A DNA stretch of 64,000 nt from Halobacterium jilantaiense (GCF_900110535.1 NZ_FOJA01000001.1:248001-312000); one strand, 5' to 3'. Shown: positions 43,979-64,000, counted from the first letter of the stretch. Numbers and translations: made by a program. Notes: generated by a model not told the origin, from the letters alone.

Positions 43979-44914
43979 TCAGTAGTCGAGGTCGTCGGTC
44001 GTCGCGTCCAGCGCCAGCACCGCGCCCGCGCCGAGTACGCCCGCGACGAGCAACGGTGCGACCGACGCTGCCGTCCACGCGCTCGTCGCGTCCGAGATCT
44101 TGATTGCCGGGGCCCGGAGCGCACCCGCCATCAGCGCCACGAGGAACGTGAGCGTGGCGGCCCGGTAGTGGTCGAGCGCCCACTCCACGGCGCGTGCGAA
44201 CGTCAGAATACCGACGAGCGCACCGCCCGAGAACACCACGAGCGTCGACAGCGGGTCGACGGCGTCACCGAGTGCGCCAGCGAACAGGGCGTCCGTCGCC
44301 TCGCTGACCGCGCCCGTCATCGTCTCGTACTTCCCGAGCGTCAACAGTATGAGCGACCCGGACACGCCCGGCAGCACCATCGCACAGATGGCGAACGCGC
44401 CCGTGACGAACATCATCGCCAGTCCCCCCGGGAGGACGTCCGCGCTGGCCTGCCCGCTGAGCAGGAACGCGAGCGCGAACCCCGCGACGCCCGCCAGGAT
44501 TCGGCCGGGCGTGTCTGCGGACACCTCACCGAGCAACACGACGACGGACGCCGCGATGAGGCCGAAGAAGAACGCGAACGTCAGGCCGGGGTACTCGTGG
44601 TAGGCCACGTCGACGACGTTCGCCACCGTGACAACAGCCGTCAGCACGCCGACGCCGAGGACGACCAGAAACGGCACTTCCATGTCCGTCAGCGCGTCGC
44701 CGAACTCCCGGCGCGCGCTCGCATCGCCGAGTCGCGGGAGCAACGGGAGTAGCGCCAGCGCCTCCCCTGGGTCGAGGGACGCGATGGCACCAACGAGGCG
44801 CTCGTAGATGCCCGTGATGAGCGCAATCGTCCCGCCGGAAACGCCGGGAACGGCGTCTGCCGCGCCCATCGCCGCGCCCTTCAGGTAGACCGCGGCCCAC
44901 TCCCGCACCGCCAT
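43979..44914 (-). CDS. DUF368 membrane protein, predicted polyprenyl-phosphate translocase
   Basis: The 311-residue integral membrane protein has about eight to ten hydrophobic segments and two copies of the DUF368 signature: DAVPGVSGGTIALITGIYERL (residues 20-40) and MVLPGVSGSLILLTLGKYETM (near 175-195). Bacterial DUF368 proteins (PopT) return undecaprenyl phosphate across the membrane. ATG 44914 overlaps the aglB stop as TGATG, so it is co-translated with the oligosaccharyltransferase. It likely recycles dolichyl phosphate after glycan transfer; that role in archaea is inferred. Confidence 0.88.
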   Translation of the reverse strand: MAVREWAAVYLKGAAMGAADAVPGVSGGTIALITGIYERLVGAIASLDPGEALALLPLLPRLGDASARREFGDALTDMEVPFLVVLGVGVLTAVVTVANVVDVAYHEYPGLTFAFFFGLIAASVVVLLGEVSADTPGRILAGVAGFALAFLLSGQASADVLPGGLAMMFVTGAFAICAMVLPGVSGSLILLTLGKYETMTGAVSEATDALFAGALGDAVDPLSTLVVFSGGALVGILTFARAVEWALDHYRAATLTFLVALMAGALRAPAIKISDATSAWTAASVAPLLVAGVLGAGAVLALDATTDDLDY

Positions 44915-47900
44915 CACCGCAGCCGTCCGAGCGCCACAGCGCCCGCGAGCGCCGGCACCGCGCCGGTCGTCAGGTCGACGCCGCCGGACTGCGAGTCCTC
45001 GCTCCCGTCGGCAGCGTCAGCCAGTTCCGACGGTGCCGTCAGCGACTCGCTCGCGGAGGTGTTCGCGCCCTCGGGCTCGTCGACAATCTGGCGCTCCAGG
45101 TTCACCGCCACAGGCTCGTCGCCCTCGCCGAGCACCTGCGCCTCGGAGACGTCAGCGGAGTTCGCGTACTCCACGACGGTCAGCCCGTCGTCGGCGGTCT
45201 GGTTCCCCGTCGTGAACTCGTAGGAGCCTGCAGCACGCACCGAGACGTTCGTGTGCCCGTTCTCCGGCCCGTAGTTCTCGTAGCCGGTCGTCGAGTACGG
45301 CAGGGTCATCGTGAACTCGCCGTCCGCCCCCGTCTCCGCGTACTGCGTGTAGGTGAACGTGGGGCTCTGGCCCTGATCGTTGACCATCTGGGAGATGTTC
45401 ATCTCCACCGACGCCCGAACCGTCGTGTTCGCCGGGCCGGTGCCCGTGACCTCAGCGCCCTCGACCCGCTCGAACATCTTCACGGAGGTCGGGTAGTACG
45501 CCGGGTTCAGCTCCCCGCCGAAGTACCAGAGGTTCGCCGGCGCGGTGTGGTCGTCGCTCACACCCACCAGCCGGTAGTGCTCGAGCGCCGCGATGTCCTC
45601 CTGGGGCAGGTCCTGGAACCCGCCGATCTGGGACGTCGAGTCGTTCTGGACGTACGCCTCGGCTTCGGCCATCGAATCGAACTGGCGGGTGTTGTTCGTC
45701 GCCGCGTCGAACGCCGCCGGCTGCCCACGCAGGCGGGTCAGCGTCTCCCGCCAGTCCAGCACGACGGGCTGCGCCTGCTTCGCGGAGCCGTGGTAACGGT
45801 ACAGCCGGACCATCATCGACTCGAAGTACGCCTGCTTCTTCAGCAGCGGCGACTGCTGGAGGTACTGTGCGTTCGTGATCTGGCCGTCCTCCCACTGCGC
45901 GTTGTACGCCTGCTGGTAGAACTCTCCCGTGGAGAGGTCTCGCGGGCCGTCGTAGAACACGAGCGGCGCACCGAACTTCGATTGGCCGGCCTGAAGACCA
46001 GGCCGCGGCGGCATGATCATCTTCCAGTCGACTGCGACGTACCGATTCTTCGCGTCGTCCTCCTCGATGCCTTCGAGGACGGCCTGCGCCCGGCTCTCGT
46101 TGTCAGCCAGGAGGAAGTTCGCCGCCGTCGTGGCACCCTGCTGGAACGGATTCGCGTGTGGCACAGCGTTGCCCTCGACGGTCATCCAGTGACCGTAGTC
46201 CCACCAGGACATCACGCCGAACGCGCCCTCGGGATAGTCGAAGTCGTCGGTCTGGGCGTACGTCCCGTAATACCGCATCTCGTCGGCGTTGTCTGCACCG
46301 TCGTACGTCCCCTGGGTCGGCGTGTGCTCGTCGTACCACTCCATCACGTCAGCCCACTCGGTGACGCCACCGGGACCGTTGTTCTGCCCGACCGTGATAG
46401 CCGACTGAAGTGGCACTTGCTGGTCCTGACTGTTCGTCAGCGTAATCGGCGTCGCCGACCCTCGCTGCGAGTCGTTGTTCGTCGCTTCTGCGACGGCCGG
46501 TGCCGCGACCGGCACGAGAATCAGGAGGGCGACCATCGTCACCGTCGCCACCTGATGCCAGCGCACGTCCTCGATCGTCGACGCCGGCTTGTCGAGGTTG
46601 ACCAGCCCGAGCACGCCCTTCAGGACGTACGCGTTCAACACGACGACTGGCACGATGAGGTAGTAGTTGAACCGCACCTGCGTGAACGCCGCCGACGTGA
46701 TGAAGGCCCCCCAGACGACGACCAGAAGCTGCTCCGCCTCGTAGTCGCCGGTCATCGCGACCGCGGCCAGCGTCCCGGCGACCAGTAGCAGCGCGGTCAA
46801 CTGTCCACCCAGTCCGAAGATGCCGCCGATGGACGACGCGAGCGGCGGCGACACGAACAGCAACGCGACGAACCCGACAGCGGCCGCAGCACCGGCGATG
46901 CGGCGGGGGCTCCCGCTCGTGACGTGGGGCTTCAGGAGGATGGCGACCGCGCCGACGAGCGCCGAGAAGAACGCCAGCCCGTACTCGAGGAAGATGACGC
47001 CGAACATCCCGAGACCGTACTGGGCCTCCCGAGCCAGGAAGGGCTGCGCCTCGCCGATGGTTCGCCTGCTCGCGTTCGCACTCAGGCCGAGATAGTTCAG
47101 GAGCTGGTCCTGAAGCATCGACCAGAAGTCCGGAAGGACGACGGCGATGATGCCGACAGCCACCACGAGGATGCCGACGACAGCACCGACGTAGCCGGAC
47201 GTCGAGAGCTCTCGGTCGTCGAACTCACGGGCGAGCCACGCGAGGAACACACAGCCGAACGCCACCGCGAACGAGAACAGCGGCTGGAGGAATGAGAACC
47301 CGGAGACGCCGAAGCCGCTCTCCGCGATCTTCACGAACATCATGAGGCCGGTCGTCGCCATCGAAACGGCACCGACGACCGCGACGTGGTCCGGGCTCGT
47401 GCCGGTGACGTAGTCGCCGACGAGCTTCACGAGGAAGAACGCACCGAAGATACCGACAAGCAGCACGCCCGGCGGCCACACCCACATGTAGACTGCGGTG
47501 GCGACGCCGGCGAGAACGCTCCAGCCGACGACCCGGCGAAGCCCCGCGACATCGCGGTCGAGGAACTGCTCGAACACCGGCTTCTCGCGCTCTGCGACCG
47601 TCAGCGCGACCATCATCGCGAGGACGGCCAGCGCCATGAATAGCGGCTCCGCACCGTTGTGGTCTGCGGCACCCGCCAGCGTTCGCTGCAGGAAGTAGCC
47701 GGGCAGTAGCCCGAGGATGACCGCCGAGAAGACGCCACCGAGCCGACCGCCGAGGCGCTTCCCCATGAAGTAGACCGGGATCGCGAGCAGTGCGCCGAAG
47801 ACGGGCGGCGCGATCACGAGAACCATCCCGATCGTCTGCTCCGACGGACTCCCCAGACCGACAATCAGTGCGACTGTCGCCAGGAGCTGGTCGAACAGCG

Positions 47901-48195
47901 TACCGAACTGGCCCGCGAGCGTGCCGTTCGGGAAGTTCGTCCAGACGTCGAACGGCATGGTGTCCGGGAAGTTCCGGACCGTGTACGTCACCTGCCGGAG
48001 GTGGTAGTACGCGTCGTTCCCGGAGAGATACACCTGACCGTCCCGGGTGAAGTTCTCCCATGCTTGCACGCGCACCCAGAACATGAACGCGAGCACCGCG
48101 CCCAGGGCGGGCACGTGGTACCAGTCTTCGAGTGCGTCGAGGGCTGCGTCGACGGAAACGGAGGAGAGCCCCGACGCTTCGGTCTTCTCGCTCAT
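44914..48195 (-). CDS. aglB: Oligosaccharyltransferase AglB
   Basis: This 1093-residue STT3-type enzyme transfers the dolichol-linked glycan to Asn-X-Ser/Thr on the outer surface. The N-terminal half has about 13 membrane helices with the metal-binding GNDAYYHLRQV loop (near residue 60) and FGTLFDQL. The C-terminal domain has VMSWWDYGHWMTVEG (WWDYG near residue 662) and VAVDWKMIMPP (near 720), the DK/MI-type motif. ATG 48195 lies 29 nt downstream of a CTTATTCGCG element that also precedes the divergent aglG-like gene. The TGATG overlap links it to DUF368. Confidence 0.97.
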   Translation of the reverse strand: MSEKTEASGLSSVSVDAALDALEDWYHVPALGAVLAFMFWVRVQAWENFTRDGQVYLSGNDAYYHLRQVTYTVRNFPDTMPFDVWTNFPNGTLAGQFGTLFDQLLATVALIVGLGSPSEQTIGMVLVIAPPVFGALLAIPVYFMGKRLGGRLGGVFSAVILGLLPGYFLQRTLAGAADHNGAEPLFMALAVLAMMVALTVAEREKPVFEQFLDRDVAGLRRVVGWSVLAGVATAVYMWVWPPGVLLVGIFGAFFLVKLVGDYVTGTSPDHVAVVGAVSMATTGLMMFVKIAESGFGVSGFSFLQPLFSFAVAFGCVFLAWLAREFDDRELSTSGYVGAVVGILVVAVGIIAVVLPDFWSMLQDQLLNYLGLSANASRRTIGEAQPFLAREAQYGLGMFGVIFLEYGLAFFSALVGAVAILLKPHVTSGSPRRIAGAAAAVGFVALLFVSPPLASSIGGIFGLGGQLTALLLVAGTLAAVAMTGDYEAEQLLVVVWGAFITSAAFTQVRFNYYLIVPVVVLNAYVLKGVLGLVNLDKPASTIEDVRWHQVATVTMVALLILVPVAAPAVAEATNNDSQRGSATPITLTNSQDQQVPLQSAITVGQNNGPGGVTEWADVMEWYDEHTPTQGTYDGADNADEMRYYGTYAQTDDFDYPEGAFGVMSWWDYGHWMTVEGNAVPHANPFQQGATTAANFLLADNESRAQAVLEGIEEDDAKNRYVAVDWKMIMPPRPGLQAGQSKFGAPLVFYDGPRDLSTGEFYQQAYNAQWEDGQITNAQYLQQSPLLKKQAYFESMMVRLYRYHGSAKQAQPVVLDWRETLTRLRGQPAAFDAATNNTRQFDSMAEAEAYVQNDSTSQIGGFQDLPQEDIAALEHYRLVGVSDDHTAPANLWYFGGELNPAYYPTSVKMFERVEGAEVTGTGPANTTVRASVEMNISQMVNDQGQSPTFTYTQYAETGADGEFTMTLPYSTTGYENYGPENGHTNVSVRAAGSYEFTTGNQTADDGLTVVEYANSADVSEAQVLGEGDEPVAVNLERQIVDEPEGANTSASESLTAPSELADAADGSEDSQSGGVDLTTGAVPALAGAVALGRLR

Positions 48196-48216
48196 TGATG
48201 GTAGGGACAAAAAGAA

Positions 48217-48283
48217 CGCGAATAAGCCTTGTGAAAGCACCCGCCACGGCCGCACGCCCCCGAAAGCACAATCCTTATTCGCG
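48217..48283. promoter_or_regulatory. Mirrored promoters of aglB and the aglG-like gene
   Basis: The 10-mer CTTATTCGCG occurs on the plus strand at 48274-48283 and on the minus strand at 48217-48226, facing outwards. Each copy is centred 27-29 nt before a start codon (48304 and 48195), the spacing of TATA elements in leaderless haloarchaeal genes. The identity goes beyond a generic TATA box, so a shared regulator or matched strength is likely. Confidence 0.65.
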
Positions 48284-48303
48284 ACACGAGCGCACTCCCG
48301 GTG

Positions 48304-51729: not shown

Positions 51730-51812
51730 CCGAACCTGAGAACGCTGTCCACAACAGTCACGACTGAGTTCTGGTCATAGTGTATCCGAACAATGTCGGT
51801 GAGTGTTCTAGT

Positions 51813-52760
51813 CTACGTAGACTCGAAGCGGTCGGCATTCTCACGATACCAAGAGACCGTCTGCGTCATCCCTTCTTGAAAATTCACTGTTGGTTCGAAG
51901 TCGAACTCCTCACTGATTTTGGTTCCAGATAGTGCGTACCGATAGTCGTGCCCTTTGCGGTCCTCCACGAATTCAACCAGGTCCTGGGACGCACTGGTTC
52001 GGTCTAGGATAGCCTCGACAACATCCAGATTGGACTCTTTGCTCATGCCGGCTACGTTGTACACTGTATCGCGGCCACTGTCTAGAACGTCGAGCAATGC
52101 ATCGCACAAGTCCGTGACGTAGAGCCACTGGCGAACGTTCTGTCCGTCCCCATACACGGGGAGTTGCTTCCCTTCCATCGCGCGGAGCGTGAACTTGGGA
52201 ATCAACTTCTCGGGGTGCTGTCTCGGACCAAACACGTTAGTTGGGCGAACTATTGTGATCGGGAGCCCGTAGGTTTCCCACATCGCGTTCACGAACAGGT
52301 CTGTACTCGCTTTACTCGCCGAATAGGGGGAGCTCGGATTTAATCTATCACCTTCAGTGAACGCCCCGTCCGCGATACTGCCATAAACCTCGTCTGTCGA
52401 TATCTGAATGAAACGCTCGACGCTCGCGTCCCGAAGCGCGTCCATGGCGACGTACGCCCCGAGAGTGTTTGTCTCGATAAACTTCTCACCACCCGATATA
52501 CTACGATCGACGTGAGATTCAGCCGCGAAGTTAATCACGTAATCAACTTTCTCGTACAACTGCCCTAACATCTCCCGGTCGGAAATGTCTCCTTCAACGA
52601 AGTTAATCTCGTCTCGTATCGAAGTCAGGTTGTCTGGAGAGCCAGCATATGTTAACTTGTCCAGCACGTGAACCTCGTCGAACGCCGCTACTGCCTGGTG
52701 GGCGAAATTCGAGCCGATGAACCCAGCACCACCGGTCAGGAGTACCGATTTGGTTTGCAC
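51813..52760 (-). CDS. rmlB: dTDP-glucose 4,6-dehydratase (RmlB-like)
   Basis: The 315-residue extended SDR has VLLTGGAGFIGSNFAHQAV (residues 6-24), NFAAESHVDRSI (about 75-86), STDEVYGS (catalytic Thr, Asp, Glu) and YSASKASTDL (Tyr and Lys), plus GPRQHPEKLIPKF and VYGDGQNVRQWLYV. It makes 4-keto-6-deoxyglucose from an NDP-glucose. A uridine version is possible in archaea. Its partner gene at 52898 is divergent. The product could feed the WecE-like transaminase at 58749. Confidence 0.9.
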   Translation of the reverse strand: MQTKSVLLTGGAGFIGSNFAHQAVAAFDEVHVLDKLTYAGSPDNLTSIRDEINFVEGDISDREMLGQLYEKVDYVINFAAESHVDRSISGGEKFIETNTLGAYVAMDALRDASVERFIQISTDEVYGSIADGAFTEGDRLNPSSPYSASKASTDLFVNAMWETYGLPITIVRPTNVFGPRQHPEKLIPKFTLRAMEGKQLPVYGDGQNVRQWLYVTDLCDALLDVLDSGRDTVYNVAGMSKESNLDVVEAILDRTSASQDLVEFVEDRKGHDYRYALSGTKISEEFDFEPTVNFQEGMTQTVSWYRENADRFEST

Positions 52761-52897
52761 GGTTTGAGCAACTCAGTGGGTGGCCATGAGGTTTTCGTCG
52801 GGAAATTTGATTAGCGGTAGGAGCAGTACGTTTGGGCCAAGCATCGACGGTGAGGAGAGCGAAATGCTAAAGAGTGGCTCCCAAGAAACCCCAACTC

Positions 52898-53614
52898 ATG
52901 AAAGGCGTTATCCTCGCTGGGGGTTCCGGTACTCGACTACGACCGATGACGCACGTGGTCAACAAACACGTCATCCCAATATACGACAAGCCAATGATTT
53001 ACTACCCCGTCGAAACGCTCGTCGAGAGTGAGATCGACGAGATTCTCGTCATAAGCAACTCCGAGCACATTGGCAAGTATATACAGCTCCTCGAACGAGA
53101 CTTCGATGCGGACTTTAGCTACAAAGTTCAAACGGAGGCGAAAGGGATTGCAGACGCCGTTCAACTGGCAAAAGGCTTCGTGGACGATTCGTTTGCCGTC
53201 GTTCTCGGCGACAACATCTTATTCGACGATTTGTCCGACGAGATTCAGTCATTCCCTACCTCGGACGCCGATGCGAAAATCTTCGTCAAAGAAGTTGATC
53301 GTCCCGCAGCTTACGGCGTCGCATCTACAGCAGATGGCGAGGTGACTGAAATCCGAGAGAAGCCAGATTCGCCCGAATCCAATCTCGCGGTTATCGGCCT
53401 CTACGTTTACACCACTGAGGTCTTCGACCGTATCGAATCGCTTGAACCCTCCGAGCGCGGGGAATATGAGATCTCGGATATCAATAACCAGTACGCCGTT
53501 GAAGGCACGCTCGATTACGAGATGATATCCAGCGAGTGGTTCGACGCTGGGACTCCTGAAGGCGTTTTTCAAGCGTCGAAGCACGTGCGCGATGACCATC
53601 GCGACAAGGAGTGA
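52898..53614 (+). CDS. Glucose-1-phosphate nucleotidyltransferase (RmlA/AglF-like)
   Basis: The 238-residue enzyme has MKGVILAGGSGTRLRPMTHV with the nucleotide loop, VIPIYDKPMIYYPVETL (about residues 25-41), VLGDNILFDD (metal Asp, near 104) and EYEISDINNQYA. It is shorter than bacterial RmlA (about 290) and similar in size to haloarchaeal AglF, a uridylyltransferase; either TTP or UTP could be used. ATG 52898 opens the loop directly. It should supply NDP-glucose to the divergent RmlB-like dehydratase. Confidence 0.85.
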   Translation: MKGVILAGGSGTRLRPMTHVVNKHVIPIYDKPMIYYPVETLVESEIDEILVISNSEHIGKYIQLLERDFDADFSYKVQTEAKGIADAVQLAKGFVDDSFAVVLGDNILFDDLSDEIQSFPTSDADAKIFVKEVDRPAAYGVASTADGEVTEIREKPDSPESNLAVIGLYVYTTEVFDRIESLEPSERGEYEISDINNQYAVEGTLDYEMISSEWFDAGTPEGVFQASKHVRDDHRDKE

Positions 53615-53641
53615 CTCACGGGACGACCCGCAGCGGCGTGA

Positions 53642-54358
53642 CTAGAACAGCGTCGGCGTGTCCCACTCCTGGTCCTGTGTCGATATCTCGCTCTCTGGCT
53701 CAATTGAGACCCGGACATAGTACCGTTCACCGTCCTGTTCGAAGTACGCATTGTAGTAAGGGGGGAACGTGAGTGCACGAAGCGTATCTATGACATCACC
53801 GATTCGGGCCTCCTCACTGAGGTTGAGTTCACAGACCGCCCCGAATTCGTCGCTGGTGTTGATGTTCCCCTTCTCGTAGTCCTGTGGCTCCGCTTGAACG
53901 GTCTCGTTGTAAATGTCCTCCCAGGATTCTTCGAACAATTCGACAATTCGGCGGTCGAGGCGCTTCCGGAGCGACCTTCCCGTGTCACTTGGTTCCACGT
54001 CGACTCGCTCCCGAGCGATGAGGTCTCCTGCATCTACCTCGGGGGTCATATAGTGTATCGAGACGCCGGCTGGCCGGTCTTCGATGATGCTCCAAACATC
54101 GGGGTTGACCCCCTTGTTGTGCGGTAAGTAAGAGGGGTGAAGGTTGATAGCTCCTGAGTCCGGGATTTGGAGGACTTCTGGCGGAATAATGTGGTCAAAG
54201 CCTGCAGACACTAGAAAATCCGGCTCTAGCTTCTCGATACACTCGTACTGGCTCGGCTCAGTAAACGCCCCCAGCACAGTCGTGTCCTCGTGTTCGATGA
54301 GGTAATTGTACACCTGCTCACCGAACCGATTCATTCCAAGAACGGCTACAGACGGCAT
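53642..54358 (-). CDS. Sugar N-formyltransferase
   Basis: The 238-residue protein is a formyl-transferase fold: SVAVLGMNRFGEQVYNYL at the N-terminus, AINLHPSYLPHNKGVNPDVW (Asn72 and His74) and PEVDAGDLIARE with Asp near 112, the Asn-His-Asp set of N10-formyl-THF-dependent enzymes such as methionyl-tRNA formyltransferase. The C-terminal part (FPPYYNAYFEQDGERYYV) resembles the FPPYNA segment of sugar N-formyltransferases like VioF or FdtF. Archaea do not formylate initiator methionine, so a 4-amino-sugar is the likely substrate, supplied by the WecE-like transaminase at 58749. It is convergent with the RmlA-like gene. Confidence 0.82.
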   Translation of the reverse strand: MPSVAVLGMNRFGEQVYNYLIEHEDTTVLGAFTEPSQYECIEKLEPDFLVSAGFDHIIPPEVLQIPDSGAINLHPSYLPHNKGVNPDVWSIIEDRPAGVSIHYMTPEVDAGDLIARERVDVEPSDTGRSLRKRLDRRIVELFEESWEDIYNETVQAEPQDYEKGNINTSDEFGAVCELNLSEEARIGDVIDTLRALTFPPYYNAYFEQDGERYYVRVSIEPESEISTQDQEWDTPTLF

Positions 54359-54592
54359 ACTCGCCCGGAATAGTCGTGGGCACAAAAGCTATCCGACGGA
54401 CCGAGTCGAACTACCCCAATCATACAACAACCGACGCCTGAATCGCCCGTGGATACAAACTTGAAATAATAATATTTATTATATTTGACTCCACGCCCAA
54501 ATTCTAGAGATTGTCTAGTTTCCGAGAGTGAGGACGCCAACTTCAAGCACAGTGCCTGAAACGTGTGCAAGGGCGGAATCGAAAATGCCCTG
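54359..54592. promoter_or_regulatory. AT-rich intergenic with perfect palindrome
   Basis: Between the formyltransferase and methyltransferase genes lies a strongly AT-rich patch with a perfect inverted repeat at 54466-54482 (ATAATAA, TAT, TTATTAT). It may act as promoter for either side, as an operator or as a terminator. The rest shows no gene I can support. Confidence 0.45.
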
Positions 54593-54712
54593 ATGTCTGG
54601 GGGCCGACACTACCGCTGTCCAATCTGCGAAAGTGTATACCGGGTGCCGCACAGTACCGTGTATGGGCCTTACTACCACGTGTGCACTTCTACTCACCCG
54701 AGTTGCCAATGA
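54593..54712 (+). CDS. Possible 39-residue zinc-finger-like protein
   Basis: ATG 54593 opens a frame with HYRCPICESVYRVPH (CxxC at residues 9 and 12) and YYHVCTSTHPSCQ at the end, giving four Cys plus His, like a zinc ribbon. It overlaps the methyltransferase start in another frame. It could be a separate protein, a displaced N-terminal zinc domain of the methyltransferase lost by frameshift, or chance. Confidence 0.3.
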   Translation: MSGGRHYRCPICESVYRVPHSTVYGPYYHVCTSTHPSCQ

Positions 54713-55526
54713 GCTTGAAGACACCGAGACGGTGGTGTGCCTCGGCAACCCCCACACCCTCGTCACATACGAAGACTACACTAGGAAAGCAGCTGCCCTC
54801 GATATCGAAGTTCCTGACACGATTAGGAACCACCCGGACGGCGAACTCGAAGTACGAGCGTTCTTTGAGGCTATCGGCTTTCCGGACTTTCGCGTCCTCG
54901 ATATCGACGACTATCAGGGCGCGGGCATTGTTCAAAACCTCAGTGAGGACTCGTTAGACGACGAACACTGTGGTGTGGCTGACCTCGTTTACGACACGGG
55001 GACGCTTGAACACGTCTACAACCTTGACAGTGCCCTCAAGAACATTCACCGCCTCCTCTCCGATGGCGGCATCGCCTACCACGTGAATCCCACGAACGGG
55101 ATGCTCGATCACGGGTTCTACCAGATTTCCCCGACGTTCTATCACGACTACTACAGAGCGAGCGGCTACAACGTCATTGGTGCGGGCATCGCAGACACAA
55201 ACCCACGCTCCCGATACAACGTCCGTGTCAGGGACTACGACCACGACATTTACCGTACGGACGGTATTGAACACGTCCTCACCGAACATCCGCGTGCGAA
55301 CATTCACTACTGCGCACAAAAATGTCCAGACTCACAGCACGCGCGTGCGCCCGTTCAGAGTTACTGGCGGTCACGACACGACGACGACGACATTGAATAT
55401 TCAGCCGAACTCAGTTTCGATATTCAGGTAAAGAAAGACCAAATCGAGTACTATGGTGGTCTGGTCGCGCGACGTCTCGGGGTCTTAGATACCGCTCGCC
55501 GGCTCCACTCGATGACATCCCGTTGA
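54663..55526 (+). CDS. SAM-dependent methyltransferase-like protein
   Basis: The protein of up to 287 residues has a class I methyltransferase pattern late in the fold: VADLVYDTGTLEHVYNLDSAL (about residues 102-122) and NIHRLLSDGGIAYHVNPTNGM. The usual glycine-rich SAM loop is weak (TVVCLGNPHTLVTYED near 24-39 may replace it). It probably methylates a glycan sugar or carboxylate. The start is uncertain: ATG 54663, ATG 54633, or a GTG near 54732. A cysteine-rich frame overlaps its 5' end. Confidence 0.65.
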   Translation: MGLTTTCALLLTRVANELEDTETVVCLGNPHTLVTYEDYTRKAAALDIEVPDTIRNHPDGELEVRAFFEAIGFPDFRVLDIDDYQGAGIVQNLSEDSLDDEHCGVADLVYDTGTLEHVYNLDSALKNIHRLLSDGGIAYHVNPTNGMLDHGFYQISPTFYHDYYRASGYNVIGAGIADTNPRSRYNVRVRDYDHDIYRTDGIEHVLTEHPRANIHYCAQKCPDSQHARAPVQSYWRSRHDDDDIEYSAELSFDIQVKKDQIEYYGGLVARRLGVLDTARRLHSMTSR

Positions 55527-55612
55527 TATTTCTGGTACCTCGTACGAATCTTCTCACCTGAGTTCACTGAACACCCGGTTAGCTAAGTACGCCAATTCCT
55601 TAAGGGTGGCAT

Positions 55613-57427
55613 ATGCAATCTTCCTCGAAAATCCGAAAAGCGTTATACTACCTCTCTCAGGGAGAGTATGGAAAAGTCACTGATTACATATCCAACTATC
55701 GGCGGAACGCCTCGCTACCACCGAGTATCAACGCACGGTACTCGTATTCCCCATCTGGGTTGACCCAGGCCCCGGAAATCGAGTATATTACGCTGAACGA
55801 CGACGATCGAGTTCACTATCCCTCGGTGTCGGGAGACGAATTCGAAGTTGAGTCCAAGAGTGACTTCGAATCCCTCGAATTCAAGATTATAGGCACCGAT
55901 AACGTAAAATCACTGACCATTACCTGTAAGTACGATTCGGGGGAGAAAGTCTGTACCATCGATACAGGGGTCAAACAAGAACCGACTGTCCCAGTTTCGA
56001 TTCAACTGGAGGACCCGACGACGAGAGCCAAAGTCGAAGTTGACTACAATACCAATCCACTCTCAGACACGCTAAAGCGGATTTCTCCGAATGAGCATTG
56101 CCCTAGGCTCACCAAACCGGCTATCCCGAACGCGAACGCTACGCCGGTCTTCCTAATCTCAATCGACTCCCTTCGTCACGATGCGCGCGAAAACCTCCCA
56201 AATCTGATTGACGAGCTCGGCGGGTCTGCGTACTTTCCGGAAGAGCCCAGGACACAGGGGTGTTGGACACCGCCGTCGCACGCTTCGATGTTCACTGGGA
56301 CCTATCCTGGAGTCCACTCGAACATCGGAAGCACTGGGTCACAGATCGCGAAAATTGATCCCTCGTTGCCAACTATCGGGAAGATTATGTCCGAACAGGG
56401 ATACAAGTCTTCCGCAATCACCACCTCCCGTTACCTCCGTCCAGAACTCGGCTTCGGGGACGGCTTCGACCGATTCGAGTGTACAGCTAATGAGACTCAC
56501 TACCTCAGTGCTGACAACGGCCTTCGAGATGCGACATCGACAGTCAACCGGTGGGTCAACGAAGACGCGGCCAAGGGGTTCACGAACCTATTCTACTTTT
56601 GGCACATATTCCCGCCGCACTGGCCGTATGTTCCCCCGGCCGAGAACCGGCCAGAGAACATTGACCTAAGCAGCAGTTTCAGGGACACAACAGGCGACTA
56701 TCTGGACTGGATTCACAGAGAACCACGGGACCACGATGCGGAATACCAACGCGTGCTCGAAATGTACGATGCCTGTGTTGAGTTCGTTGACGCGCAGGTT
56801 TCGACCTTCCTTCGAACCTTGAAGAATCGTGGTCTCTTTGAGGATGCTCTTGTCATCATTCTCGGAGACCACGGCGAAGAGTTCGGGGAGCGTGGCTTCT
56901 ACGGCCACAATAGTCTGAACGACGACAATATTCGCCCGTTCATGGCAGTCAAACCGCCAGAGACAGAATCTTGGCCAGTACGGGACGATGTCGATTTCAT
57001 CGATATACTGCCGACTATCGCGAAATTCGTCGGTTCAGACGTACCAGACGAGTGCGAGGGTCTGCCGATCCAGCGCGGTGAGTCTAATCGGCCGCGAATA
57101 GCTGAACGAATCGGGTCCGACTACTACAACGTCAGCGTCGAAATCGGCGGGTGGAAGGGTATATTCACGTGTGAGGAGAACCATCCTGACCGTCCCGACC
57201 CCGAAGCACTCGAAAACTTGGTTTGCGAGGAGTACTACGAGATCCAATCGGTCAGGAGTGGCACTTACATCAACCAAGTAGATTCCATTGGTGACGAGCG
57301 GAGAACAGAGTTGCTCGCGACTGCCCGAGAGTTCCTGAGCACAGGCACTGCGAACGAGGGATCACATCTCACCCGGATGTCAGACGAAACGCGGAGTCAA
57401 TTGCAGGATTTGGGATACATCGAGTAG
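55613..57427 (+). CDS. Sulfatase/LtaS-type protein with Thr in the nucleophile position
   Basis: The 604-residue protein has an N-terminal beta-rich region (residues 1-175) and an alkaline-phosphatase-superfamily domain with PVFLISIDSLRHDA (metal Asp, about residues 180-193), RTQGCWTPPSHASMFTG (about 217-233) and VIILGDHGEEFGERGFYGHN (metal Asp and His, about 420-439). When TPPSHASMFTG is aligned with the sulfatase CxPSR site, the Cys position is Thr, as in phosphoglycerol or phosphoethanolamine transferases. It could therefore move or remove a phosphate- or sulfate-type group on glycans. No signal peptide is obvious. Confidence 0.75.
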   Translation: MQSSSKIRKALYYLSQGEYGKVTDYISNYRRNASLPPSINARYSYSPSGLTQAPEIEYITLNDDDRVHYPSVSGDEFEVESKSDFESLEFKIIGTDNVKSLTITCKYDSGEKVCTIDTGVKQEPTVPVSIQLEDPTTRAKVEVDYNTNPLSDTLKRISPNEHCPRLTKPAIPNANATPVFLISIDSLRHDARENLPNLIDELGGSAYFPEEPRTQGCWTPPSHASMFTGTYPGVHSNIGSTGSQIAKIDPSLPTIGKIMSEQGYKSSAITTSRYLRPELGFGDGFDRFECTANETHYLSADNGLRDATSTVNRWVNEDAAKGFTNLFYFWHIFPPHWPYVPPAENRPENIDLSSSFRDTTGDYLDWIHREPRDHDAEYQRVLEMYDACVEFVDAQVSTFLRTLKNRGLFEDALVIILGDHGEEFGERGFYGHNSLNDDNIRPFMAVKPPETESWPVRDDVDFIDILPTIAKFVGSDVPDECEGLPIQRGESNRPRIAERIGSDYYNVSVEIGGWKGIFTCEENHPDRPDPEALENLVCEEYYEIQSVRSGTYINQVDSIGDERRTELLATAREFLSTGTANEGSHLTRMSDETRSQLQDLGYIE

Positions 57428-57457
57428 TAGTATCTTTGACACCAACGGCTAGCGTGA

Positions 57458-58723
57458 TTAGGGGTAGAAGTACCGGTACAATCGTTTGACAAGTCGGGAA
57501 TTGTCATGTATCCTTCTCGCGGTGCCGTAGAGGTTACTCGCTTTCAGGAGAGAGACAACTGGCGTGGTCCTCTCCGACGCGGGTGTCGGAAGTGTAACGT
57601 CACCGCTATCTTCACCCTCGTCGGCGATACTGTTAGTTCGTCCGAACAGTTCTTCGGCAACGTCTACTTCTGGGTCTTCGCTCGTAATCACTTGAGCGAC
57701 CTCATCGGTCGCCCGTAACTGCTTCAAGAACGCTCCAAACGAGCACTCGAACCGGTTCTTGTTTGCAGTTTCCATCCCGTGGTGACGAGCGATTCTGATG
57801 TCGAGATTATCGAAGAAGAACCCGTTATCGCTGAACGGTTCGTCGAGTCTCCGAAATACGTCCCTTAGATCCGCTTTCAGGTTCTCTGTTGAATGCACTA
57901 CCGAGAATGATTCTCTGGCCGCACTGAGGTCGGGGTCTCCTTCTCTACACATTTCGACCGCACCCACAACCTTCTCCGGAATATCGGTGTAATCTTCGGC
58001 CTCGTAGTAGTACGGAGGAGCCCTCAATCCCTTCTCGTCGAGATCTGGGTGGTACATGTTCAGCCCAACGACTGGCATCTCAGACGCCCAAGCGTACCCG
58101 ATGTTCCGAGCACGACCCCCCTCGGCATCGGAAGGATGGACGTAGACCCTGGAGCTTTTGTAGAACTCGGCCAGCGTCTCGCGGTCAAACGGGAACGGGG
58201 AGTCGTGGTACAGCGGCAGGTAAGTGAAAATATTGCGTTCTTCTTCAGTAAACATATCTAGGTACATATCGCTAGGATTAGATGGGACCCGTTCACGCTT
58301 CTTCTCCGGCACAGTCACTATCAAGAGAATCCGATAGTCGTACCCCTGTTCAAATAATTTCTTGACTACGTTGAAGAAGAATTCGACGTTCTTCCTTCGC
58401 GTACATCGACCGACGTACAAAACATCCCAGTGTTTCTCACGGCCGTCTGACTTGAAGCACGGCGGCGCGAGTTTTCCCGCGTCAACATTAACAAGTGGAG
58501 CACCGTTCAGGTCCTCAACGAAGTTCAGTCCGGTAACCGCAAAATCGTAAATCTCGGGGTGATTCTTTTTCGGTCCATTGTAGTGTAGCCCGAGTATCCA
58601 GTCGTCCTTCAGTGACTCCAGTAGCTGCCTATGTTGTTTTGGATGGTACACACTGTCATGTTCGACCGTGGTGAAGACGAGGACGCCCTTAGAATCATCC
58701 GGAAGTTTCAGAATACATGCCAT
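57458..58723 (-). CDS. Family 1/4-type (GT-B) glycosyltransferase
   Basis: The 421-residue protein has a short N-terminal domain, then HWDVLYVGRCTRRKNVEFFF (about residues 98-117, donor domain start), YRILLIVTVPEK, VYVHPSDAEGGRARNIGYAWASEMPVVGL (about 194-222, with the Glu-rich donor loop). This is a GT4-like retaining transferase. Its C-terminal 120 residues are of unclear fold. ATG 58723 is used rather than TTG 58726. It is convergent with the Thr-type sulfatase-like gene and follows the WecE-like gene by 25 nt. Confidence 0.75.
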   Translation of the reverse strand: MACILKLPDDSKGVLVFTTVEHDSVYHPKQHRQLLESLKDDWILGLHYNGPKKNHPEIYDFAVTGLNFVEDLNGAPLVNVDAGKLAPPCFKSDGREKHWDVLYVGRCTRRKNVEFFFNVVKKLFEQGYDYRILLIVTVPEKKRERVPSNPSDMYLDMFTEEERNIFTYLPLYHDSPFPFDRETLAEFYKSSRVYVHPSDAEGGRARNIGYAWASEMPVVGLNMYHPDLDEKGLRAPPYYYEAEDYTDIPEKVVGAVEMCREGDPDLSAARESFSVVHSTENLKADLRDVFRRLDEPFSDNGFFFDNLDIRIARHHGMETANKNRFECSFGAFLKQLRATDEVAQVITSEDPEVDVAEELFGRTNSIADEGEDSGDVTLPTPASERTTPVVSLLKASNLYGTARRIHDNSRLVKRLYRYFYP

Positions 58724-58748
58724 CAATCACATGTGGCGTCGTGGGGTA

Positions 58749-59921
58749 TTAATCGATTCCGTCTGTTGGCCCCTCCAGTTCCGGCGTCGCACTTTCGTAG
58801 AACTCGTAGATAGACTCACCAATAGCGTCTACATCTGTGTCCGAGACGGCCGTGTGAATCGGGAGCCTGAGTAGACGCTTCGATACGGACTCGGTTTCTG
58901 GCAAATCACCTTTCTGGTAACCGTACTCTCGCCCGTACGGTGAGGTATGAAGGGGTTCGTAGTGTGACGCTGCTTCAACGCCCTCTTCTCGCAAGTGGGT
59001 GACGAGTGCCTCTCTCTCGCTCTCGGTCCGGGCCAGAACCGGGAACAGATGGTAGTTCGGGTCGGCGTGCGCCGGAATTGTCGGCAGTTCAAGTAGTCCT
59101 TCTCTCTCCAGAGGTTTCAGTTCAGAAACGTACCTATCGTGAACGCCTTTCTGCACGCTTGTTATCTCGTCTATTCGCTCAAGTTGCGCTCGAAGCAATG
59201 CCGTTTGGAGCTCAGACGGGACGTAACTTGATCCAGCATCGACCCACGTGTATCGGTCCACCTCTCCACGTCTGAATGCCTCGTAGTTCGTTCCCTTCTG
59301 CCGAATTTTTTCGGCTCTATCGATGAACGACTCGTCGTTCAAAAATATCGCGCCGCCTTCCCCTGCGACGTAACTCTTGGTCCCGTGGAAGCTGAAACAA
59401 CCAATATCGCCGACCGTCCCGAGCGGCTCTCCTTTGTACGAGGCGTTGAGTGCCTGTGCGGCGTCTTCGACTACGAGAGCGTCGTGGTCATCTGCGATAG
59501 CTGTGATCTCATCCATCTCGCACGCCACCCCTCCATAGTGAACTGGAACGACTGCCGCTGTGTCCTCAGTAATCGTCTCACGTAGCGAATCGGGATCCAT
59601 ATTTAACGAATCTGGGTCCACGTCACAGAACTCTATATTTGCGCCGTGGAGGGCGAAGGCAGTCGCAGTCGAAGTGAATGTGTACGAAGGGACGACGACC
59701 GTATCTTGGGGTCCAATATCCATCAAAATCGCTGCCATCTCCAGCGAGTGGGTACACGAAGTCGTCATCATCGCGCGCGCTGTCCCAAAGCGGTCTTCAA
59801 GAAATCGTGCACACTCCGAGTCAAATTTGCCACCGCCTTTTATTTCGGCGGACTCAAGAACTGACACAACGTTGCTTACTTCTGTCTCACCGATGGATGG
59901 ATTGTGTAGGGGAATTTTCAT
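58749..59921 (-). CDS. WecE/RffA-like sugar aminotransferase
   Basis: The 390-residue PLP enzyme is close to Escherichia coli WecE across its length: MMTTSCTHSLEMAAILMDIG, PSYTFTSTATAFALHGANI, VPVHYGGVACEMDEI, VEDAAQALNASYKG (Asp153) and CFSFHGTKSYVAGEGG (PLP Lys182), then EKIRQKGTNYEAFRRGEVD and YTWVDAGSSYVPSELQ. WecE makes dTDP-4-amino-4,6-dideoxygalactose from the 4-keto-6-deoxy sugar that RmlB supplies. The formyltransferase at 53642 could then act on the new amino group. The configuration at C4 is inferred from similarity. Confidence 0.88.
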   Translation of the reverse strand: MKIPLHNPSIGETEVSNVVSVLESAEIKGGGKFDSECARFLEDRFGTARAMMTTSCTHSLEMAAILMDIGPQDTVVVPSYTFTSTATAFALHGANIEFCDVDPDSLNMDPDSLRETITEDTAAVVPVHYGGVACEMDEITAIADDHDALVVEDAAQALNASYKGEPLGTVGDIGCFSFHGTKSYVAGEGGAIFLNDESFIDRAEKIRQKGTNYEAFRRGEVDRYTWVDAGSSYVPSELQTALLRAQLERIDEITSVQKGVHDRYVSELKPLEREGLLELPTIPAHADPNYHLFPVLARTESEREALVTHLREEGVEAASHYEPLHTSPYGREYGYQKGDLPETESVSKRLLRLPIHTAVSDTDVDAIGESIYEFYESATPELEGPTDGID

Positions 59922-59971
59922 TTATAGTGTTGAAATTGCTACTTTACGACTTGACGCCGCCCAAGGAGCGA

Positions 59972-60676
59972 TTAGGCCGATGTGTACGAGTTCGTTATTA
60001 ACATACGCTCGTACCCCTCCTCCTGTGGCCAGCCGCGGTGATATCCAGCTTGGTTGCCGATAATCAACGTTCCTTTCTCAGCTGTGAATTTCGTAATTTC
60101 GGATTCTTCAACGTTCCGAGCATCGGTAGACCGGTTCCCTTTGACACGGTTGATTAGTGAATTAGTCGTTTGCTGTAGCTTCGACTTGTCGTGGCTCCCC
60201 TTCACGTACGAGAACGGACCGTAACTCTCATCGGGAACATCTGTCAAGTAGACGAATGACTTGAATTTCCCACTGTATGTGTCTGCATGGAATCCACGGG
60301 TGCTTGTGACAGACTTGTTGACGTACGCATTAGAATTGTCCACACTGTACTCGTTTCCAGTTGCTCGATTGATGATTTCGAGAATGTCTGGGTTTGTCTT
60401 GTACTCTCGCACGTCGTCCACAGCGTAATCAATATTGAAAATGTCAATCATCCCCTCGTCAGCTGTACCCGACCGGTCCAACAGAATGGCTTCTTCTGCG
60501 CTCGCCAGTTCCTCGTAGGAGTCGTGTTCGTTTGAAACTGTCAATCCGTCTCCTCCCAGAACCGATTCGATCTCCTTACGGACACGGTCACACCGTTCCG
60601 CATCCCAGAACCCTTCGTACGAAACGACACCGTCTTTCCTGAGCTGAGTTGCCAATTGCGAAGTGGGAACCGACAT
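59972..60676 (-). CDS. Phytanoyl-CoA dioxygenase (PhyH) family protein
   Basis: The 234-residue protein has the Fe(II)/2-oxoglutarate pattern: TRGFHADTYSGKFKSFVYLT (HxD near residue 130) and AGYHRGWPQEEGYERMLI (distal His near 213, then the 2-oxoglutarate-binding Arg). DGVVSYEGFWDAERC at the N-terminus is typical of PhyH. It may hydroxylate a sugar or a lipid carrier within the glycan pathway; its place between two aminotransferase genes supports this, but the substrate is unknown. Confidence 0.8.
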   Translation of the reverse strand: MSVPTSQLATQLRKDGVVSYEGFWDAERCDRVRKEIESVLGGDGLTVSNEHDSYEELASAEEAILLDRSGTADEGMIDIFNIDYAVDDVREYKTNPDILEIINRATGNEYSVDNSNAYVNKSVTSTRGFHADTYSGKFKSFVYLTDVPDESYGPFSYVKGSHDKSKLQQTTNSLINRVKGNRSTDARNVEESEITKFTAEKGTLIIGNQAGYHRGWPQEEGYERMLITNSYTSA

Positions 60677-60733: not shown

Positions 60734-61867
60734 TTAGGCTGTTTTCACGGCCGCTTCTACGCCGTCAACGACTCGGAGTATCTGTCGCTCTGGTAGCCCT
60801 GCGTACATGGGGAGCGAGAGCACACGGCTGGACACATCCTCGGTAGTCGGGAGTGCAGGATGTTCTCCGTTTTTGTACACTTCTGTCTGGTGCACTGGCG
60901 GATCCCAATATATCTTGCATGCTATGCCCCTACGTTCTAACTCGTCGACGACAGAGGTTCGAACTGACTCATTATCGAATAGTACAGAGTACAGTTGGAA
61001 GACGTGCTGGTTACTACCGGAATTTCTCCCCCGAACAGGCACAACCCCGTCTAGCTCGCCTAAACTGTTGTTGTAGGTCTCTGCGACTTCACGGCGCGAG
61101 TCTACGAGTTCGCCTACCTTCTCGAACTGCGAACAACCGAGGGCAGCCACTACGTCAGGCATTCGATAGTTCGAACCTGTTGTAGTGTACTGGCCGCTAT
61201 CAGCAGATTGGAAGTAGTTCGAATTCGGCTCGCGACCGTGGGACCGATACTGTGCGACCCGTCTCGCGATGGTGTCATCTTCCGTGAGTATTGCGCCACC
61301 TTCACCGGTCGGAAGGATTTTGTTCTGACAGAAGCTGAGGGCCGCTGCGTCGCCAAATGTGCCTACTTTCTGCCCGCCGGCGATGGCACCGAAGGCTTCG
61401 GCCGCATCCTCAACGAGCGGCACACCCGCTTCGTTTGCCAAGTCAGTTAGGTCTTCAACGAGGCACGCACTCCCGTAGCAATGTATCGGGAGAATCATGG
61501 CAGTGTCGTCCGTGAGTTTCTTACGTGCGTCCTTGGGGTCCATACCCAGGGTCTCACGTTCGATGTCGACAAACACTGGTTCTGCCCCCAATAGTTCTAC
61601 CACGTTTGCGGTTGCGATGAAGGTGAACGAGGGAACGAGAACTTCGTCCCCCTCTCCGATGTCGTACGCACGAAGGAGACATTCGAGTGCAGTCGTTCCC
61701 GAATTCACGACCAGTGCATGTTCGACGTCAAAATACTCGGCAAGTTTGGACTCAAACTCATCCACGTACGGGCCCTTCGCCCAGTAACTACCGCGACTCA
61801 CCGACTCCACGACGTTGCTAATGTCGTTCTCGTCCCAGGGTATCTCGAAGAGAGGGATGTCACTCAT
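60734..61867 (-). CDS. DegT-family sugar aminotransferase (LegC/perosamine-synthase-like)
   Basis: The 377-residue PLP enzyme has VVNSGTTALECLLRAYDIG (about 53-71), PSFTFIATANVVELLGA, LPIHCYGSACLVEDL, VEDAAEAFGAIAGG (Asp154) and ALSFCQNKILPTGEGG (PLP Lys183), then NYRMPDVVAALGCSQF. ATG 61867 overlaps the stop of the dehydratase gene (ATGA), so its substrate is most likely the UDP-4-keto-6-deoxy-GlcNAc that dehydratase makes. It differs clearly from the WecE-like enzyme at 58749. LegC-like or perosamine-synthase-like function cannot be separated by eye. Confidence 0.85.
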   Translation of the reverse strand: MSDIPLFEIPWDENDISNVVESVSRGSYWAKGPYVDEFESKLAEYFDVEHALVVNSGTTALECLLRAYDIGEGDEVLVPSFTFIATANVVELLGAEPVFVDIERETLGMDPKDARKKLTDDTAMILPIHCYGSACLVEDLTDLANEAGVPLVEDAAEAFGAIAGGQKVGTFGDAAALSFCQNKILPTGEGGAILTEDDTIARRVAQYRSHGREPNSNYFQSADSGQYTTTGSNYRMPDVVAALGCSQFEKVGELVDSRREVAETYNNSLGELDGVVPVRGRNSGSNQHVFQLYSVLFDNESVRTSVVDELERRGIACKIYWDPPVHQTEVYKNGEHPALPTTEDVSSRVLSLPMYAGLPERQILRVVDGVEAAVKTA

Positions 61868-62907
61868 GTTCCTATCGTAGCGATGGTATCCATTTCTTCG
61901 ATAAGCTCGACAATCTCGGATTCACCTAACAGGTTGGAGTTCTCTGAGGTGTACTCTTCGTCTACGGGGGGTTCCTTTTCGTAGTCTTCCTGGCGATAGC
62001 TCGGGAGGTCGATTTGAGGGAAAATCACGTACATCTCCTCTAATTCTCTGGCGTACTGGAGTTCGTCCTCTGAGATCAGTTTTTCGTGGGTTCGTTCACC
62101 CGGTCGGGCCCCGATGATCTCGCGCTCAATCTCACCAGGTTCGTAGCCTGCTCGGGGCGCGTATTCCGCTATCATGGCATCTGCAAGAGTTCCAACGCGG
62201 ATTCCCGGCATCTTCAGTACGAACACTTCTCCCCCTCGCATGCGCTCCTGTGCTCGGAAGACCAACTCGACGGCTTTCTCCGTCGGCATGATGAACCTCG
62301 TCATCTCGGGGTCGGTAACTGTGACGGGGCCACCGTCCTCGATCTGTTCCATGAACACCGGAATCACTGACCCGCTGGAACCGAGGACGTTCCCGAACCT
62401 GACGCACGCGAAAGACGTGTTCCGTTCCCCCTTGTACGTGTTTGCGGCGGTAACGAGTCGTTCGGACAGTAGTTTCGTTGCCCCCATCACAGAGGCCGGA
62501 TTGGAGGCTTTATCGGTGCTTACTGCGACGAACGAGTCGACCGACTCTTCGAGGGCTGCGCGGATGAGGTTCTGCGTGCCCTGAACGTTCGTTTGAACCG
62601 TTTCGAACGGATTGTATTCGTTCAACTCAACATGTTTTAACGCCGCGGCGTGAAACACAACATCAATATCCTCAATGGCCATCTTGAGGCGGTTTCTGTC
62701 CCGGATGTCCCCCAATAAAAACCGGAGACGGTTGTCCGTATGTTCCTGCTTGAGAGCGAACAGTGCCTCCTCGTCGGTATCGAGGACCCTCACCGTCTCA
62801 GCCTCGGTCTCCAACAGCTTCGAGACGATCTTTGACCCGATAGATCCACAACCGCCGGTGACGAGCACCTGATTTCCGGCGAGTGAACGATTGGTAGTCT
62901 CGCTCAT
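61864..62907 (-). CDS. UDP-GlcNAc 4,6-dehydratase (retaining type predicted)
   Basis: The 347-residue soluble SDR has QVLVTGGCGSIGSKIVSKL (about residues 13-31), HAAALKHVELNEYNPFE, the STDKASNPASVMGATKLLSE core (Asp132, Lys133, Met141, Lys145), and GPVTVTDPEMTRFIMPTEKAVELV. The Tyr of inverting PseB is Met here, as in PglF and WbpM-type retaining enzymes, favouring a legionaminic or bacillosamine route over pseudaminic acid. ATG 62907 and the neuB-like gene diverge over 103 nt. It is coupled to the aminotransferase at 60734. Confidence 0.85.
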   Translation of the reverse strand: MSETTNRSLAGNQVLVTGGCGSIGSKIVSKLLETEAETVRVLDTDEEALFALKQEHTDNRLRFLLGDIRDRNRLKMAIEDIDVVFHAAALKHVELNEYNPFETVQTNVQGTQNLIRAALEESVDSFVAVSTDKASNPASVMGATKLLSERLVTAANTYKGERNTSFACVRFGNVLGSSGSVIPVFMEQIEDGGPVTVTDPEMTRFIMPTEKAVELVFRAQERMRGGEVFVLKMPGIRVGTLADAMIAEYAPRAGYEPGEIEREIIGARPGERTHEKLISEDELQYARELEEMYVIFPQIDLPSYRQEDYEKEPPVDEEYTSENSNLLGESEIVELIEEMDTIATIGT

Positions 62908-63010
62908 TGGTTTATACGCGGGTTAACACACTCGAAGGCTGTTATAGTGTTCGAATCGGCGTCCTGTTCGCGTGAACAGACTAATTACATGTGACGGTGT
63001 TACTTACTGT
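62908..63010. promoter_or_regulatory. Divergent promoter region of the dehydratase and neuB-like genes
   Basis: Minus-strand CTATAACA near 62939-62946 lies about 35 nt before ATG 62907, and plus-strand CTAATTACA near 62980-62988 lies about 27 nt before ATG 63011. Divergent transcription from this segment would co-express the nonulosonate genes. Confidence 0.5.
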
Positions 63011-64000
63011 ATGGAAATCGGGGATTGGTCTTCAGAATCAGACTCGGCCTACTTCATCGCCGAGGCTGGCGTCAACCACAACGGTGACTTGTCTCTCGCA
63101 CGCAGATTGGTAGACGCAGCGGCGGATGCGGGTGCAGACGCCGTGAAGTTCCAAACGTTTCGGGCAGACGAAATCGTCACAGATTCCGCCCCCACTGCCG
63201 AATACCAAGAGGACGCAACTGAAGGACAGAGCCAACACGAACTGCTCGCGGATTTAGAGTTAGACACGGAAGCGCACGAGTCTCTGATGAAGTATTGCGG
63301 AGAACGAGGCATCGAATTTCTCTCCACGCCGTTCGGGTTCGAGACTGCCTCGTTCCTGGAATCACTCGAAGTCGGCGCCTACAAGGTCGGTTCTGGCGAT
63401 CTGACGAATCATCCACTCCTCCGGCAAATCGCGTCCTACGGACGACCGATGATTGTCAGCACTGGCATGAGCTCGATTGACGAGGTCCGGAGTGCGTTTC
63501 AGACGATTAAAGACGTAAACCCAGACGTTCCAGTTGCCCTGCTCCACTGTGTCTCGGCGTACCCGACACCATTAGCGGAGGTGAACCTCAGAGCGATCGA
63601 TACGCTAGCCGACGAATTCGGAGTACCGATTGGGTTCTCCGACCACACAACTGCGGTTGAGATGCCGGCACTCTCGGTCACCGCAGGTGCACGCATCGTG
63701 GAGAAGCACTTCACTCTGGACCGGGCGCTCTCTGGCCCCGACCAAACAACATCACTCGAACCCGACGAGCTGACTCGTGCTGTGAGCTTAGTTCGTGATG
63801 CGACTGACGTACTTGGTGATGGCACCAAACAGCCGACACCTGCAGAGGAGGAGACGCGGAACGTCTCGCGAAAAGGCTTGTTCGCAGCGAACCGACTGGA
63901 GGCGGGGGACAGAATTACGAAATCAGACGTAGCGATTAAACGGCCACCGACGGGACTTCCGCCGACAGAGTTTGAGTGGGTAGTCGGACGCAGGCTCGTG
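63011..64000 (+). CDS. NeuB-family nonulosonate synthase (3' end outside window)
   Basis: The 330 visible residues match N-acetylneuraminate/legionaminate/pseudaminate synthases: YFIAEAGVNHNGDLSLARRL (about residues 14-33), DAVKFQTFRADEIV, FLSTPFGFETASFL, VGSGDLTNHPLL, VSTGMSSIDEV, LLHCVSAYPTP, IGFSDHTTAVEMP and RIVEKHFTLDRALSGPDQTTSLEPDEL. The C-terminal SAF (antifreeze-like) domain begins at KGLFAANRLEAGDRI. It condenses phosphoenolpyruvate with a 6-carbon sugar to give a 9-carbon acid. The nearby dehydratase and transaminase suggest legionaminic acid. About 20 residues are missing. Confidence 0.92.
   Translation, partial: MEIGDWSSESDSAYFIAEAGVNHNGDLSLARRLVDAAADAGADAVKFQTFRADEIVTDSAPTAEYQEDATEGQSQHELLADLELDTEAHESLMKYCGERGIEFLSTPFGFETASFLESLEVGAYKVGSGDLTNHPLLRQIASYGRPMIVSTGMSSIDEVRSAFQTIKDVNPDVPVALLHCVSAYPTPLAEVNLRAIDTLADEFGVPIGFSDHTTAVEMPALSVTAGARIVEKHFTLDRALSGPDQTTSLEPDELTRAVSLVRDATDVLGDGTKQPTPAEEETRNVSRKGLFAANRLEAGDRITKSDVAIKRPPTGLPPTEFEWVVGRRLV

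Follow-up and report, generated by a model that had tools for sequence, protein, structure and literature searches.

A candidate route to a 4-formamido-4,6-dideoxygalactose in a glycan gene island of Halobacterium jilantaiense

The window, a stretch of 64,000 nucleotides of Halobacterium jilantaiense (NZ_FOJA01000001.1:248001-312000), contains an island of glycan genes flanked on one side by aglB, whose product is the archaeal oligosaccharyltransferase (Table 1). The island (48301-62907, and on to about position 7400 of L004, the continuation past the window edge, in which 1972-3054 corresponds to window positions 62972-64054) has a G+C content of about 50%–62%, in comparison with 66%–70% around it; within the window, G+C is about 70% in the first 44 kb and about 50%–58% over most of the island. 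Low G+C is common in glycan islands. At the coordinates given in Table 1, intact ORFs are found for RmlB, an RmlA-like nucleotidylyltransferase, a sugar N-formyltransferase (FT) and a WecE-type aminotransferase. FT is placed between RmlA/RmlB and WecE, 27 bases from the former pair's RmlA and 4.4 kb from WecE, with other genes in between. A preliminary description of this DNA had assigned these four genes to one island spanning 51813-59921, and the ORFs and family scores, the latter far above chance, agree with that assignment, while the span itself ends before the remainder of the island, where LegC, LegB and the other nonulosonic acid genes lie. Among the other genes, the glycosyltransferase is a candidate for transfer of the amino sugar. 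A PhyH-like dioxygenase sits between WecE and LegC; it may hydroxylate a sugar or be unrelated.

Table 1. Genes of the island and its aglB edge, with window coordinates and the model scores on which the assignments are based
Feature	Position	Strand	Evidence
AglB oligosaccharyltransferase (archaeal STT3), island edge	44914..48255	-	TIGR04154 837 bits (cut-off 450), PF02516, PF22627, PF18079
RmlB, dTDP-glucose 4,6-dehydratase	51813..52760	-	TIGR01181 382 bits (cut-off 365)
RmlA-like glucose-1-phosphate nucleotidylyltransferase, short form (246 aa)	52874..53614	+	PF00483 194 bits
Sugar N-formyltransferase (FT)	53642..54385	-	PF00551 82 bits (cut-off 26), PF18216 55 bits (cut-off 25.8)
Methyltransferase-like protein	54633..55526	+	weak PF08242/PF08241 matches
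Sulfatase-family protein (alkaline-phosphatase superfamily)	55613..57427	+	PF00884 68 bits
Glycosyltransferase (Glyco_trans_1_4)	57458..58726	-	PF13692 32 bits (cut-off 27)
WecE-type aminotransferase (dTDP-4-keto-6-deoxyglucose to dTDP-Fuc4N)	58749..59921	-	PRK11706 486 bits (cut-off 375)
PhyH-like dioxygenase	59972..60676	-	PF05721 27 bits (cut-off 22)
LegC/PseC-type aminotransferase	60734..61867	-	PF01041 361 bits; PseC model 283, LegC model 266, both below cut-off
PseB/LegB-type UDP-GlcNAc 4,6-dehydratase	61864..62907	-	PF02719 338 bits; TIGR03589 329, below cut-off 408
LegI/NeuB-family synthase	62972..64000, on past window edge	+	TIGR03569 400.0 bits (cut-off 399.65)

The best PDB relatives of RmlB are dTDP-glucose 4,6-dehydratases. 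The RmlA-like protein falls below both RmlA equivalog cut-offs (TIGR01207, 216 vs 361; TIGR01208, 211 vs 320), scores lower with the AglF model (154 bits) than with the RmlA models, and has only thymidylyltransferases of the RmlA type among its listed PDB matches at E ≤ 1e-30. It would be best described as an RmlA-like nucleotidylyltransferase, with either dTTP or UTP as its probable nucleotide. Of the RmlA/AglF-like and RmlB-like pair described earlier, RmlB is upheld by TIGR01181, and the RmlA-like member holds at family level, though short of the equivalog cut-offs. In the whole genome, no RmlC was found and no RmlD over cut-off, and rhamnose as the use of this pair was therefore rejected as unlikely; because of these absences, RmlA and RmlB probably feed WecE.

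Judged from its sequence, the aminotransferase is unambiguously of the true WecE type. The solved WecE structures 6blg and 4piw score 366–369 bits with it, against at most 166 for all other DegT structures, and the earlier WecE-like call is thereby sharpened, as PRK11706 is also passed; the subfamily model TIGR02379 is narrowly missed (431 vs 434.85). Identity is approximately 47% to enterobacterial RffA/WecE and 47%–48% to proteobacterial homologues. With 391 haloarchaeal genomes sampled, no match at E ≤ 1e-90 was obtained in the other Halobacteria, and WecE was apparently gained horizontally, from outside the haloarchaea. Other loci do have WecE homologues near FT, but these are DegT proteins of the PseC/LegC kinds with 28%–35% identity; FT beside a true WecE was not found in any other genome examined. 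The clear aminotransferase type, together with the missing RmlC and over-cut-off RmlD, supports NDP-Fuc4N as the predicted intermediate.

FT includes PF18216 (N_formyltrans_C), the C-terminal domain of sugar N-formyltransferases. Its Asn81-His83-Asp118 aligns with the catalytic residues of four solved enzymes of this type, among them 6v2t, FdtF 4nv1 and VioF, and with those of PseJ, and FPPYYNA occupies residues 207-213; alignment and PF18216 thus bear out the intact Asn-His-Asp triad and the sugar-type C-terminal segment that had been pointed out before. The TTG start is probably wrong, with codon 10 (ATG, base 54358) as the likely true one, since relatives begin there. A Foldseek search with the AlphaFold model (pLDDT 84), in keeping with the structural comparison suggested earlier, returned VioF and Francisella 4nv1 among the best matches, together with Shewanella 6v2t, Rv3404c, Pseudomonas 6v33 and Pantoea 6nbp; the best 17 were all sugar 4-N-formyltransferases, and Fmt, WbkC, ArnA and PseJ ranked behind them. 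The modelled fold is therefore closest to that of dTDP-4-amino-4,6-dideoxyglucose N-formyltransferases, not GART or Fmt. In the catalytic core, identity is 42% to PseJ over 113 residues, 30% to VioF and 32% to 6v2t, so that FT combines a PseJ-like core with a VioF-like C-terminal domain. Because FT misses the cut-off of PRK07579, the dTDP-4-amino-4,6-dideoxyglucose formyltransferase equivalog (122.6 bits vs 238), as its relatives likewise do, it was filed in the wider sugar 4-N-formyltransferase family and not as a dTDP-Qui4N formyltransferase.

The same island holds a full nonulosonic (legionaminic-like) acid gene set, which the preliminary description had overlooked. Beyond the window edge, LegI is followed by genes for LegG/NeuC, a NeuD-type acetyltransferase (LegH), an SDR, a CMP-nonulosonate synthase, a Gfo/Idh oxidoreductase and GlmS; the NeuC (414) and NeuD (171) scores are over cut-off and the PseF score (150) is below it. 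None of the genes in the window island was recognised as pseG-like. The NeuD-type acetyltransferase adjoins LegG, as in L155, L157 and L158, and is retained in a locus whose LegI lies about 8.6 kb from FT, itself among RmlA/RmlB. Since this locus shares the island, a second 4-amino sugar may be open to FT.

Clear FT orthologues (36%–51% identity) were detected in 19 of 390 other sampled Halobacteria; nanohaloarchaea and a small number of bacterial MAGs have them too. For comparison, 24 haloarchaeal loci were taken, comprising up to 20 kb around the genes of those 19 Halobacteria plus five further named loci, and in 22 of them FT stands in a nonulosonic acid locus. The pseudaminic kind carries PseB, an SDR, PseC, PseI, PseG and an SpsF-like protein; the legionaminic kind carries LegB, LegC, LegI, LegG and LegF and, in many cases, a PIG-L deacetylase and a second formyltransferase of Fmt/ArnA-like type (FT2). 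In the two exceptions, L066 and L067, FT is accompanied by an aminotransferase and an SDR belonging to the locus, a NeuB homologue is lacking, and the FTs are the nearest haloarchaeal relatives of the window FT by identity. No acetyltransferase, whether NeuD-type or PseH-like GNAT, is present in the 22 FT-bearing nonulosonic loci, apart from one weak hexapeptide match in L082, about 4 kb from FT; an acetyltransferase is present in 15 of 20 nonulosonic loci from genomes without this FT. Those 20 loci include ten with a NeuD-type protein, three with another hexapeptide protein, two with a GNAT between PseG and PseI, and three with a formyltransferase of another subfamily. The exclusion gives a Fisher p of 1.6e-7 (2.5e-6 if L082 is counted), a value to be read in the knowledge that the loci share ancestry and are not independent, and that the first set had already been seen when the comparison was set up. 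The simplest reading is that FT replaces the acetyltransferase on the C4 amine in nonulosonic loci.

Several further observations were made on these relatives. The PIG-L deacetylase and FT2 recur together beside NeuB/NeuC homologues (L068, L069, L075, L080, L081, L083, L088, L101 and L116); if an amine is first deacetylated and then formylated, this could account for the 5-N-formyl group in legionaminic acid, and where FT1 and FT2 occur in one locus, the product could be a di-N-formyl nonulosonic acid. On plasmid pR1SE2 of Halorubrum lacusprofundi, an FT relative of 44% identity (L115:14019-14750) stands beside glycosyltransferases. Relatives of 39%–50% identity occur in nanohaloarchaea (L087, L092, L093, L096 and L104), several of them near a large membrane protein resembling an oligosaccharyltransferase, with no aminotransferase recognised nearby. 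An FT homologue in a legionaminic-type locus (L055 / L084:9716-10339, 36%) has one TGA and one TAA within the match and is probably a decayed gene. Spread of FT by viruses was considered and dropped, as the scan of viral contigs gave no relative and the phage rows listed were distant matches only, of at most about 31%.

In the best tree, whose solved-structure rows are fragments taken from alignment output, a single clade (98/98) unites the FTs from nonulosonic loci; the window FT falls outside it and groups weakly (88/57) with other haloarchaeal and nanohaloarchaeal FTs. The AU test does not reject a tree with the window FT placed inside that clade (p 0.165), at a cost of 2 log units, which weakens any claim that this FT certainly lies outside.

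Close parallels are found among characterised systems. VioF, Francisella 4nv1 and Rv3404c, at 23%–28% identity, share with FT the Formyl_trans_N and PF18216 domains, the Asn-His-Asp residues, the fold (TM 0.77–0.81) and RmlA/RmlB partners, yet the core motif is YLPHNKGVNPDVWS in FT and GLNPYNRGWFPQVFS in these three, and the partner of FT is WecE, with a galacto product, not VioA, with a gluco product. PseJ from the pseudaminic acid pathway of Anoxybacillus has the highest core identity among the solved enzymes compared and the same type of motif, with alignments that end before the C-terminal domain of FT. The enterobacterial RmlA-RmlB-WecE-WecD route, leading to dTDP-Fuc4NAc for the enterobacterial common antigen, has its first three steps in common with the window, which carries a formyltransferase where that route has the acetyltransferase WecD. 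To our knowledge, no characterised formyltransferase acts on Fuc4N, a point against FT doing so.

Formyl sugars as such have precedent in haloarchaea. The S-layer glycan of Halorubrum sp. PV6 ends in 5-N-formyl-legionaminic acid, and the legionaminic acid operon includes a predicted formyltransferase gene (PMC6137143); a 2024 study of pL6-family plasmids predicted that a haloarchaeal plasmid enzyme makes dTDP-4-formamido-4,6-dideoxyglucose (PMC11431627). The first of these contradicts the earlier statement that no established haloarchaeal example of a formamido sugar was known, and the second predicts a 4-formamido-sugar enzyme. The PV6 pathway resembles the window in being haloarchaeal, near aglB and with nonulosonic acid genes in the region, and in involving an N-formyl sugar; judging by size and place, its predicted formyltransferase HrrPV6_1050, of about 317 aa and encoded next to legG in the operon, would be FT2-like, unlike FT. 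The pHILL-c2 enzyme (PMC11431627), compared here by description, is likewise a haloarchaeal sugar N-formyltransferase, carried on a small Haloquadratum plasmid, but its product, predicted from a modelled structure, is the gluco sugar in contrast with the galacto one proposed for FT.

Taken together, the preferred reading, to which a probability of roughly 0.55 is given, is a route to NDP-4-formamido-4,6-dideoxygalactose in which FT acts on the WecE product and an AglB-linked glycan receives two amino sugars from the island. RmlA would activate glucose-1-phosphate, RmlB would convert the product into NDP-4-keto-6-deoxyglucose, and WecE would aminate C4 to give NDP-Fuc4N in the galacto configuration. 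FT would then move a formyl group, presumably from N10-formyl-tetrahydrofolate, onto the amine, and a local glycosyltransferase would add the resulting 4-formamido-4,6-dideoxygalactose to the glycan, and so presumably to protein, while LegB-LegC-LegH-LegG-LegI-LegF would make a separate, acetylated nonulosonic acid. The island is the only one seen with both FT and an acetyltransferase, and with both WecE and LegC; because two acyltransferases accompany two aminotransferases, the pairing of FT with the WecE product and of NeuD with the nonulosonic acid is favoured, one acyltransferase per amine being the simplest arrangement. Action on the WecE product is also supported by the position of the FT gene close to RmlA and between RmlA/RmlB and WecE, by the place of the window FT outside the nonulosonic clade in the best tree and by its nearest relatives, L066 and L067, which sit without a NeuB homologue.

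Several results are counted against this reading, namely the core of FT being nearer to PseJ, which acts on a pseudaminic acid precursor, than to VioF; the preponderance of relatives in nonulosonic loci with the AU result; and the 4.4 kb between FT and WecE, with no second genome in which FT adjoins a true WecE. The first two also suit a serious competitor, less probable in our judgement, in which FT acts instead on the nonulosonic acid precursor made by LegC, formylating its C4 amine to give a 7-N-formyl legionaminic-like acid. In the nonulosonic loci FT takes the usual place of the acetyltransferase, here such a locus lies in its own island, and the WecE product, under this explanation, would stay free or be acetylated by NeuD, whose family takes in VioB-type sugar N-acetyltransferases. 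Against it, the window locus has an acetyltransferase of its own next to LegG, FT and such an enzyme never occur together in the 22 FT-bearing loci, and the best tree separates the window FT from them.

It is improbable that the gene order is a mosaic reflecting no single pathway, with FT taking more than one amine, or another NDP-amino sugar whose synthesis is encoded elsewhere in the genome. The low G+C and mosaic character of the island would agree with this, as would the differing partners of the three non-nonulosonic haloarchaeal FTs, that of pR1SE2 being near glycosyltransferases only; it leaves aside that a complete NDP-Fuc4N route is compact in the same island and that WecE otherwise lacks a visible acyl-transfer partner. 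Identification of FT as GART, Fmt or a formyl-THF deformylase, or of the ORFs as chance or broken, is refuted: the PurN and Fmt models do match FT, weakly and below cut-off (56 vs 150 and 87 vs 201.5 bits), whereas PF18216 is present, the best structures are all sugar enzymes, every ORF is intact and a PurN of the genome's own exists as a fusion with PurH. The clustering with GART or Fmt that would have undone the earlier prediction was not seen; in sequence, C-terminal domain and fold, FT groups with sugar enzymes.

The surface glycan of H. jilantaiense thus probably holds a formylated sugar. No report of 4-formamido-4,6-dideoxygalactose in archaea was found in the open-access papers searched, and the 4-formamido-fucose type would be new in haloarchaea, where formyl sugars are already known. 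A more tentative account, to which slightly less than even odds are given, is that an FT lineage serving mostly nonulosonic precursors in haloarchaea was recruited beside an apparently imported WecE, yielding 4-formamido-4,6-dideoxygalactose in the surface glycan of a cell that also makes a separate acetylated nonulosonic acid. If the preferred reading is true, it would represent a second kind of formyl sugar in archaeal glycans and a substrate switch within one enzyme family. The formyltransferase-or-acetyltransferase pattern predicts, from sequence, which haloarchaea bear nonulosonic acids with N-formyl in place of N-acetyl groups. The S-layer and a virus spike of Halorubrum PV6 both have glycans capped by 5-N-formyl-legionaminic acid (PMC6137143), and by extension the choice of acyl group may be of consequence when viruses or mating partners recognise the cell.
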